DNA from: Anarhynchus alexandrinus
Taxonomy: Eukaryota > Chordata > Aves > Charadriiformes > Charadriidae
Length of the DNA: 64,000 bases
Assembly (NCBI GenBank): GCA_008711295.1
Contig: VUYV01000508.1
Coordinates: forward strand, 221,484-285,483
Direction of reading: 5' to 3'
The notes beneath the pieces are model-generated. The model ran no database searches. It saw only the letters and a list, made by a program, of their open reading frames with translations, and was not told where the DNA came from. This document shows positions 37,497-51,176 of the stretch, one piece after another; within the stretch, counting starts at the first letter, position 1, and each line of letters opens with the position of its first letter. Position numbers and translations under genes: made by a program.

Positions 37497-37828
37497 CCCT
37501 CAGGGGTCATGTGGAACAGCGTGGCTTTGTGCCGCCTTGGCAGACGGCCCCCCAGCGCCGCATCGCCGCCGCTCCCAAGGTTACAAACCTTAAATCGCGT
37601 GTTTGAAAGAAAATATAAGGATTTGTGTCACGGTAAACAGTCAGCACACGTACTGCAGAATCAGGGGTCGAAACGGACACGCGACATGCTTCCCTGCCGT
37701 TTAGTAAGTAATAGAGCAAAATATAGACGGTACGCAAAAACTTACCCTGTTTTAGATGGACGTATCCTGTCTGTGTATCGACATGTGTTTGAAGAAAATT
37801 TAAGGAACAGTGAGGCTGTTATTAAAAG
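37497..37828 (+). CDS. MCCC2-like exon with start codon (residues 1-107)
   Basis: The acceptor CTCCCTTCAG ends at 37496; ATG is at 37509 with G at -3. Residues 1-26 are rich in Arg, Ser, Pro and Leu with no acidic residue, typical of a mitochondrial presequence. Similarity to the family only begins around residue 80 (VLDGRILS, then FEENLRNSEAVIKR). The middle of the exon is AT-richer and unlike MCCC2, so a hidden intron or an extended leader is possible. It ends AAAAG|GTAATA in phase 2. Confidence 0.75.
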
Positions 37829-40800
37829 GTAATAAGCTGTTTTTGTGGTGTTTTAAAAATGTTGCTACTTGTGAGATGATGTGAGAGTTACGTGCGGGCA
37901 CTTGTAGGAACTTTTTAACATAGGAAGAATGCTAATTTAAAAGTCCAGAGATTAAAAAAATAATTATTTTTTTTACCTAACCATTTTGAAGCTTAAACTA
38001 GTTTCCTGGCTGCACTTTTCTCGGGCAGCTTCTTCGCAGAGTGAATTTTACAAGGATCAGCACTTCAAAATTTCAGCCCCCCCCGAAAGAGGTGCCTAAA
38101 TGTTGACTGAAATGCCGAAATCTAAGTGCAGACTGTATTTGCAGTAGTGCCATGTGACATTGTTTTGCATATATTGCCAAGAAGTATTTTTTCTAGACCT
38201 TCATAAATTCTTGTTTCATATTTGATTTTGAACGCAAAGATGTAAACAGTGACTCCTGCATTTACGGATCCCTCCTGAAGGAGTAGGTGATGGTTATTGC
38301 AATTAATTCACTGATAAAAGCAGGAAAATGTATTTTATGTGTTTGTCCTTAAAGCTCAGATGGCAAAAATTCAAACGCCTTTGTTCAGAGGAATGATACA
38401 TGAGCTGGAAGCGAAGCTATGGCAAACACACTGTGCCCTCCTGTGGTGGCACTTATGACATTATTAAAAACCTTTAGCTTTTTCCTCCTGAGGTTTTTCA
38501 ATCTCTACAGTCTGCAGGAAGCCACGATGAGATAATGGAGTCACGTACAGAGCGGTGCATAAATAGTTTGTCAAGCAGTATTTTTAGCGAAAGATGATGC
38601 ATCTTGGTGAAAAACGTTTTATTCAAAATAAATGAAGAACCTGGCTTATTTAAGACCAAAATTATTCAAGATACCGCATTTGTTTACAGTTTATTCAATT
38701 GTTTATCTGTACGTGATGCTGCCCCAGCAATAACATCTGGGAATCATTTCCTCTCTTGATGACTGTAGTGACACTGCAGTATTCATTGCTTCTAAAGTGT
38801 ATCTTCTGTGCCGTAGAGTGTGCATTTCTTCTAGATTTAGCGTTTTATTCTACTTACCAGTTACTGATTTTTGTCAGATTAACTTGTTGAGGGAAGCTGA
38901 ATCCCTTGACTGGATTCTTCTAGAGTAGTTGGAACATGGAGGTAAATGTCCATGCTGAATTAGGACTAGCAAATTATGCTAGCCTTATTAATAGCTGCAA
39001 GTTTATAGGCTGACATTGTTGTAGGGCAGTATCTCTCAAAGTCAGTTCTCATTGCTGACGATCAGCCCCTTGTCAGTACTCCGCTCGTGGGGTTGCTGGC
39101 AGAGATTAAGTGTGATCATCTGTTGTGAAATAACGTGTGTTGGGTGTATATGGGCAACACCCAGGGGAGGATGTGGATTTAATGTCTACCAGCTGTGAAC
39201 ATAACCTACAGATAGAATATTTATATTATTTCGCTCTTTTTTAATCTTTATTAGACAATTTTTGAATAACAAAACTAAAATGCTTGCTTTAAATAACAGA
39301 CTTTTGCTTTTTATTACACTTTGCAAGAAACAATAACCTGAAAATGTGAATTCATCTTCATTCTCATACCATTGATGTGAAAACTGTGCAATAAAGTACC
39401 ACGTTCAATCTGCTAAAGGGTAACTTGTAAGTAAAGGTGGTTTTCATTAATTGAAACTTTGTTTCTTAAATCAGATATTCAGAATTGCTAGAGATGGTCA
39501 GTAAAGGAGGGGGAGAAAGTGCCATCTTGCGTCATACTCAGAGAAACAAGAAGCTGTTTGTTCGGGAACGCCTGAAGTTGCTACTTGACGATGAGTCTTT
39601 TCTTGAGCTGTCTCCGCTGGCAGGCCTCAGTTTGCCATATGGTGACGTCCCTGCTGCTGGCTGCCTTACTGGTAATTGCTACCAAATGTGACGTTCGATG
39701 TAATGGGAAATTAATGAAGTTCATTTATTTCATTGCTCGTATCTTTAAATGTGATTCGTATCAGATCTAAAGATGGATACGGGGTGAGGGTATTGTGTTG
39801 AGCAGCCCATGTTGGAGGCGCAGCCCAGAAGGAAGAAGGGTTTTGAACCAACACGATCCTTAATATAATTTGAGAGATGCTGTTTGGCGCAGCGACGAGT
39901 AGGTGATTGTAGGCAGCGTGCATTAGTTGTAGTCTGTATGTGCTGCACACCTTCCCAGAGTAACCAGCCTTGCTCGCTGAAGGTAAGGTGTCTGTTCTTA
40001 CTGGGAATGGAGAAAGGGTACATGTAATCAGGTTTATGGAATATTTTAGTATCTTAAGAGTGTGCTTTCCTAGGAAAAGTGAACATCAGTCCTATCCAAT
40101 AGCACCATGAAAGACTTCAGCCACTACTGTGTTATTCTGCTGCGATTTTTGCTGGGAAATCTGGGAGAAACCTTTAAAGAAAAAAAGTTCTTTCATTTCT
40201 TCTGGATTTGGTAATTTATTCTACTTACCAGTTACTAATTTTTGTCTCAAAAAATTTAGGATGATGGGTCAAATAAGCTGTTGTCAGTTAAAGGAAAGGG
40301 GACCAAGTTACTGTGAGACACAGGAGCTGTGACATTCCTTTTGTAGTGTTTTTCAAATTATAGACAAGTCTCTTACTGCATTGCATTTTGAAGAGCAGTT
40401 CCAGTTTAAAAAGTAACTAGAAGATTAGAGTATAAAATCCTATCTTTTGTCACAAATTGTTACTTTTTTCAGTTTTATATAGGTAATTTTTTATTGCCTT
40501 CCCTGTTATCTCAATAGTTGGAAGCCAAACTATGTATTTTTTTCTCTTATATTGTCACCAGGAGTAAATAAGTTTATTTCAAGTTCTGTCTTCTGTCATT
40601 TAGATTTTTTTTTTTAAATGTCATTGGCTTTCAGCTTGTTATTCCAGAGAAGAACAATAGATTTCTTCCCTGTGTGGTATTTGCAACTTAATTTGCAGCT
40701 TCCTGATAGAGTATTAGTGAAAGAACATCCTAGCTATAATTTGGCCCCCTTGTTTTGTCTATGGTGTTTCAGAGAGTCCTGATAAGTGTCTGTGGTACCA

Positions 40801-51077: not shown

Positions 51078-51170
51078 CTGCAGCCGCTTTCAAATAATCA
51101 GCCTTTTAAAGTCAGCACCGTGCACTAGAAATCTGTAATGTAAATGATTTTCTAATTCTTTGATACCATT

Positions 51171-51176
51171 AATAAA
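51171..51176 (+). terminator. Poly(A) signal AATAAA, MCCC2-like gene
   Basis: AATAAA lies 94 nt after the stop codon, giving a very short 3'UTR with cleavage expected near 51190-51205. Confidence 0.7.

Follow-up and report, generated by a model that had tools for sequence, protein, structure and literature searches.

An old paralogue of the methylcrotonoyl-CoA carboxylase beta subunit between WLS and RPE65 in the bird Anarhynchus alexandrinus, with probable loss of carboxyl transfer from biotin

The beta subunits of propionyl-coenzyme A (CoA) carboxylase (PCC) and methylcrotonoyl-CoA carboxylase (MCC) stabilise the biotin oxyanion with a Gly-Ala pair of the C-domain. Glutaconyl-CoA decarboxylase is still biotin-dependent, and the biotin-independent malonate decarboxylase MdcD/MdcE provides a precedent for carboxyltransferase-like proteins working without biotin. 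Here we analyze a gene for a protein of this type in 64,000 nucleotides of Anarhynchus alexandrinus DNA (assembly GCA_008711295.1, contig VUYV01000508.1, positions 221,484 to 285,483 of the forward strand; hereafter, the window). The gene, MCCC2L, is almost certainly an old paralogue of MCC-beta. It is already annotated and widespread, hence not new as a gene; the replaced C-domain residues are what appears new, and we did not find the altered catalytic half in print in the open-licence literature.

MCCC2L differs from MCCC2 (PDB 8j4z, 3u9r, 8rth) by its 48–50% identity and by the replacement of C-domain invariants; identity of the window protein to the beta subunit of the bacterial geranyl-CoA carboxylase (GCC; 5ikl) is 35–37%, and to the alpha subunit of glutaconyl-CoA decarboxylase (3gf3, 1pix) 19–21%. 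Its likeness to MdcD/MdcE is one of precedent. More specifically, identity of the window protein is 49% with bird MCCC2, 50% with human MCCC2, and 48% with Pseudomonas aeruginosa MCC-beta, whereas the human and P. aeruginosa proteins are 66% identical to each other; MCCC2L has, hence, diverged further than MCCC2 has from its bacterial counterpart. The phmmer score is higher with human MCC-beta (519.5 bits) than with GCC-beta (359.5 bits). A structure predicted from an alignment of 73 diverse rows keeps the MCC-beta fold (root-mean-square deviation, rmsd, about 2.5 to MCC-beta). Full-length PCC-beta-type chains superimpose poorly on this model (about 23–28% identity, rmsd 23–25), and 261-residue pieces of human PCC-beta match with rmsd 4.0 over 248 residues, i.e., over one domain; the sequence and domain arrangement of the PCCB type are not those of the window protein. 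The Pfam domain Carboxyl_trans extends over residues 132–599 (E 4e-105) and spans the whole mature protein, in agreement with the full-length homology to MCC-beta proposed in a preliminary description of this DNA.

To compare individual residues, 197 MCCC2L rows (the window protein and 196 others) were aligned with 205 canonical rows (4 solved structures, 1 protein from this genome, 80 bacterial sequences, retained from 267, and 120 MCCC2 rows); sites are given in human numbering. In 33 of the 218 columns fixed at 97% or more in canonical proteins, the canonical residue is kept in at most 3% of MCCC2L. Residues G406, M408, G410, G417, I418, G422, K424, G448, N449, M473, and Q477 are each present in 205/205 canonical rows. 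In MCCC2L, Gly448 is replaced by Glu or Asp in 184 of the 185 rows with a residue there (the partial row P0111 has Gln, and 12 of the 197 rows have a gap), Asn449 by Ser (185/186), Gly422 by Gln (184/186), and Lys424 by Ser (178/186), and Gly406, Met408, Gly410, Gly417, Met473, and Gln477 are lost in all or nearly all rows; the invariant C-domain set G406, G410, G422, K424, G448, N449, and Q477 is, hence, not retained. The canonical GGSYGAGNYGMCGRA reads GGCYGSDSYVMCGRS in the window protein. Replaced sites are denser at 398–490 (16/54 vs. 17/164 elsewhere, p 0.0016, this region being picked after inspection of the data), and the N-terminal half has changes of its own, F191 to Gly (195/195), V272 to Cys (196/196), and Q198 to Glu (188/195). 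We take Ala447-Gly448 of the human protein to be the C-domain oxyanion pair, mapping it by hand from work on PCC. Because residues that never vary in canonical proteins are replaced at the presumed biotin side, the carboxyltransferase of unknown substrate suggested in the preliminary description is probably not the right one.

The same replacements bear on the explanation that MCCC2L is still a biotin-dependent carboxylase, acting on a different acyl-CoA with a rebuilt biotin site. The family relatives are biotin-dependent, the acyl-CoA half is intact, and the automated annotation agrees; besides, structures of PCC-beta variants at D422 have been deposited (as given by their titles), D422 being, by hand mapping, two residues beyond site 448. 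With deposited variants at G202/G203, their titles indicate that residues in loops of this sort have been altered before. However, all or almost all MCCC2L rows lack ten residues found in 205/205 canonical rows, and the bacterial relatives (80 retained from 267) are canonical at the sites replaced in MCCC2L, though they were fetched with MCCC2L's own patterns. On balance, we regard a retained biotin-dependent activity as quite unlikely.

Site entropies were calculated for 32 MCCC2L and 45 canonical rows that remained after the removal of near-duplicates and gappy rows. The mean over all sites is 0.76 in MCCC2L and 0.95 in canonical proteins. The three acyl-CoA loops, DSGGAxLP, GSCxAGGAYVP, and FLAGPPLVKAATGE, mostly retain canonical residues in the 32 MCCC2L rows, with mean entropies of 0.17, 0.25, and 0.22 (canonical, 0.35, 0.10, and 0.14). 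Loops 404–417 and 472–484, presumably located at biotin, as in the beta subunits of PCC and MCC, have mean entropies of 1.49 and 2.24 (canonical, 0.76 and 0.47), while helix 418–430 is similar in both groups (0.45 vs. 0.47). Therefore, the acyl-CoA half has been held, and these two loops have been let go. Nevertheless, Cys272, Gly191, Leu419, and the acid at site 448 are each fixed in 32/32 non-redundant MCCC2L rows, and the median conservation at the 33 replaced sites is 0.957 vs. 0.941 at all sites.

These two sets of values point in different directions for the possibility that MCCC2L is a pseudoenzyme that catalyses no reaction and serves as a structural or regulatory beta subunit in MCCC2/MCCC1 particles or sequesters acyl-CoA. 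The drift of the presumed biotin loops, well above the overall 0.76, would be expected of such a protein, as would the loose floor segment and the free site 447 described below; the fold is kept, and 44–50% identity to MCCC2 might permit mixed oligomers. On the other hand, the residues fixed in all 32 rows, and replaced sites no less conserved than the average, argue against it, and we consider a pseudoenzyme unlikely, if less so than a retained biotin-dependent carboxylase. Because several of the replaced residues are fixed, we lean slightly toward an acyl-CoA reaction of a new kind over an inactive subunit.

The product of MCCC2L would enter mitochondria and fold like MCC-beta, its N-domain site would still bind an acyl-CoA, and it would be unable to accept a carboxyl group from carboxybiotin, because Glu or Asp stands at site 448 of the presumed oxyanion pair and the loops presumed to bind biotin have become longer and drift. 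The loss of carboxyl transfer seems quite probable. The whole reading, in which MCCC2L as an old paralogue binds acyl-CoA, does not transfer carboxyl from biotin, and possibly performs biotin-free chemistry, has in our estimate an even chance of being correct. More speculatively, Asp503 of the window protein (site 448), together with Gln477, Ser479, and Ser504 of that protein, which are newly fixed, may face the thioester in the intact N-domain site, and the biotin-free chemistry on the thioester might be proton transfer, hydration, isomerisation, decarboxylation, or hydrolysis. The most specific version, in which jawed vertebrates other than mammals have a mitochondrial acyl-CoA enzyme independent of biotin, a carboxyltransferase scaffold with its carboxybiotin pocket rebuilt around Glu/Asp448 as a new catalytic acid and catalysing a step that mammals lack, is somewhat less likely than not.

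Several observations weigh against this reading. The floor segment 442–456 has an entropy of 0.47 vs. 0.20 in canonical proteins, that is, below the MCCC2L average and still looser than canonical; site 447 is free (Ser in 70 rows, Gly in 41, Ala in 39, Asn in 23, and others); both would fit relaxed constraint. In the mature part, chimaera and bird proteins are 69% identical for MCCC2L vs. 91% for MCCC2, so that MCCC2L evolves faster overall. The MCCC2L rows are close relatives, and the counts are not independent. The assignment of the biotin-binding loops is taken from related beta subunits rather than computed, the orientation of Asp503 toward the substrate is inferred from the alignment, and the Gly-to-acid replacement at site 448 might be tolerable if the backbone amide alone does the work.

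Turning to the origin of the gene, canonical MCCC2 is also present in this genome, on contig C643, where 15 exons were mapped without the two ends of the gene and the canonical motifs are present. Both MCCC2L and MCCC2 occur in the chimaera Callorhinchus milii, in the coelacanth, and, across two species, in eels; therefore, the divergence of the two genes predates the radiation of jawed vertebrates, and MCCC2L was in place by that time. In the main tree, which included 15 of the 197 MCCC2L rows, these form one clade (support 100/100) whose stem measures 1.5 changes per site, and the window protein is not an orthologue of MCCC2, given the separate clade and both genes in one genome. The paralogy claimed in the preliminary description is, thus, upheld by the phylogeny it called for, MCCC2L standing outside bird MCCC2. 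That the window gene is a misplaced, duplicated, or contaminant bird MCCC2, or a decayed pseudogene, has in its favor only general similarity (49% to bird MCCC2), and is practically out of the question: a misplaced or duplicated MCCC2 is ruled out by the fully supported clade, the orthologues in jawed vertebrates, and the canonical gene elsewhere in the genome, and a pseudogene by the intact frame of 611 codons.

The trees also contain evidence that speaks against a plain duplication within animals. In the main tree, MCCC2L joins five Bdellovibrionota rows (96/84) and not animal MCCC2; this grouping recurs in a smaller tree at 86/58, where uniting MCCC2L with animal MCCC2 costs 15 log units but is not rejected (p-AU 0.082). 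Such a pattern would be produced if MCCC2L had been taken from bacteria separately from MCCC2, before jawed vertebrates. However, resemblance to MCCC2L was the criterion by which the Bdellovibrionota rows were selected, and MCCC2L has a long stem. In addition, 3 of the 11 introns are common to MCCC2L and MCCC2 in column and phase; were the 10 introns in shared columns placed at random, three or more would coincide with probability 8e-5, the true chance being somewhat higher, as real introns prefer certain sites. We weigh the shared introns above the tree grouping, and a separate bacterial origin is, hence, considered very unlikely. Separately, one metagenome-assembled genome of a Legionellaceae bacterium (L061, positions 2501–4093) has an MCC-beta-like match with one in-frame stop; it was omitted from the alignment.

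Orthologues were collected in three protein searches (with the window protein, the coelacanth protein, and canonical MCCC2), keeping the best 120 matches of each. Among the matches listed for the window protein are birds, turtles, crocodilians, lizards, tuatara, frogs, the coelacanth, and one deep-sea fish; the best is from snowy owl (91%), shorebird and owl proteins have 90–91% identity, galliform proteins 81–83%, and passerine ones 71–82% (some isoforms lower). The coelacanth query adds sharks, rays, chimaera, sturgeon, gar, and many teleosts among the matches listed. In other birds, the "MCC beta-like" proteins are orthologous to the window protein (identity up to 91% over full length, with a common clade in the tree), and the annotation of orthologues reads "MCC beta-like" or "carboxylase 2" across sharks, bony fish, frogs, reptiles, and birds; the expectation that the gene is kept in birds and perhaps in reptiles or fish has, thus, been borne out, with frogs and sharks in addition. 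Vertebrates take up all three lists. No named mammal is among the best 120 protein matches for the window or coelacanth query, in lists that contain some nameless rows; mammals do turn up when canonical MCCC2 is the query. This suggests that MCCC2L may have been lost in mammals. In several sharks and teleosts (P0123, P0124, P0135, P0141, P0176, and others) the paralogue is named "methylcrotonoyl-coenzyme A carboxylase 2", which is a probable mislabelling; canonical MCCC2 is listed separately for other sharks, eel, and chimaera.

Contigs marked "lgn", of 1.8–3.2 kb, encode 535–625 residues of MCCC2L, at least 19 such rows being in the list for the coelacanth query; one of them, P0015 from a galliform, has 2006 bases and encodes 625 amino acids, 93% identical to guineafowl. 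With 11 introns and an extent of 13.6 kb for the gene in the window, contigs this short should be spliced transcripts. The preliminary description would have fallen with the lack of any exon-spanning transcript in birds, and these transcript-like contigs, including the galliform one, probably dispose of that objection. A name that may denote MCCC2L occurs in an alligator gonad RNA-seq table (PMC4727388) and in a turkey circRNA table (PMC8424120). We found no paper on the function of MCCC2L in the open-licence literature.

The gene was rebuilt from the sequence as 12 coding exons at 37509–51077 of the window (plus strand), with GT-AG borders at all 11 introns, matching phases, and a coding length of 1836 nucleotides (611 codons and a stop) with no internal stop; this independent rebuild reproduces the preliminary gene structure. 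Coding exon 1 (37509–37828) contains the start codon and the arginine-rich N-terminus, and is followed by exon 2 (39475–39671). Exon 3 (40808–40986) encodes ANDATVKGG ... DSGGAFLP of the acyl-CoA half; exon 4 (42292–42372), Gly242 and Glu249, corresponding to canonical F191 and Q198; exon 5 (42805–42983), the acyl-CoA loops GSCVAGGAYVP and FLAGPPLVKAATGE; and exon 6 (44503–44695), Cys323, corresponding to canonical V272. The introns 3' of exons 5 and 6 are common to MCCC2, and that 3' of exon 4 matches a canonical MCCC2 intron exactly. Exon 7 (45702–45793) precedes exon 8 (46604–46760), with QNTAPHTAEPTSISQ where canonical proteins have the QNITGFMVG loop; exon 9 (47522–47644) has RLKAQASMM for GIAKDGAKM and GGCYGSDSYVM for GGSYGAGNYGM, Asp503 replacing canonical Gly448; exon 10 (48553–48701), LVDSRHFS for canonical VMGGEQAA; and exon 11 (49205–49286), YSSARLWDDG. 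Exons 2, 7, and 12 (50994–51077, including the stop codon) are set by splice-site rebuild. The poly(A) signal, AATAAA, is at 51171–51176 (plus strand), as described before. The introns between exons 3 and 4 and between exons 9 and 10 contain stretches (41460–41820 and 47805–48075, respectively) that by appearance resemble CR1-type bird repeats.

The first 80 residues include 18 Lys/Arg and 3 Asp/Glu, and the N-terminus is presumed to be a mitochondrial targeting peptide; its beginning, MWN, is also seen in other birds, a turtle, and a monitor lizard. The sequence directly 5' of the start codon (37481–37508) is pyrimidine-rich and ends with CAG, and in the transcript-like row P0015 the sequence upstream of MWNS differs from the window; a non-coding first exon farther upstream is likely. 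A GC-rich, CpG-rich stretch at 36101–37400 (GC content 0.80–0.84 and CpG observed/expected 0.72–0.96 at about 36.1–37.3 kb) is the probable promoter region; the promoter proposed earlier is only plausible, because the stretch is broken by an assembly gap (36595–37156) and is partly a GC-rich repeat (judged by eye).

MCCC2L indeed lies between WLS and RPE65. RPE65 is seen as three pieces on the minus strand between 52.0 and 54.9 kb, which match residues 416–532 of the solved RPE65 (E 3e-62), and its final part, with the end ...VTFHGLFKRA at about 52.05 kb, is at 52047–52230 (minus); the two genes are tail to tail, with less than 1 kb from the RPE65 stop to the MCCC2L poly(A) signal. For WLS, the confirmed part is residues 1–37 (coding exon 1, 7576–7686, minus strand, 92% to a probe sequence), which places the start sites of WLS and MCCC2L about 30 kb apart. 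Further assembly gaps are at 6620–7516, adjoining this exon, and at 62717–63009. In a study of Russian White and White Cornish chickens (PMC8469556), an interval on GGA8 lists MCCC2L with WLS, RPE65, GNG12, and DEPDC1. The preliminary description knew of no annotated coding gene between human WLS and RPE65; chicken has MCCC2L in this region, and chicken MCCC2L and vertebrate "MCC beta chain, mitochondrial-like" genes share the neighborhood of the window gene. No difference from chicken MCCC2L was found, the chicken sequence not being named among the matches listed, and the window gene is taken to be its counterpart.

The present database name of MCCC2L is probably wrong about its function. If the biotin site is gone, methylcrotonoyl-CoA carboxylase labels are wrong in sharks, fish, frogs, reptiles, and birds, and work on "MCCC2" in fish or chicken may concern another reaction. 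A single acid, at site 448, is open to test in MCCC2L. Being conserved, probably mitochondrial, and with no mammalian counterpart seen among the matches listed, MCCC2L would indicate that metabolism differs between mammals and other vertebrates.
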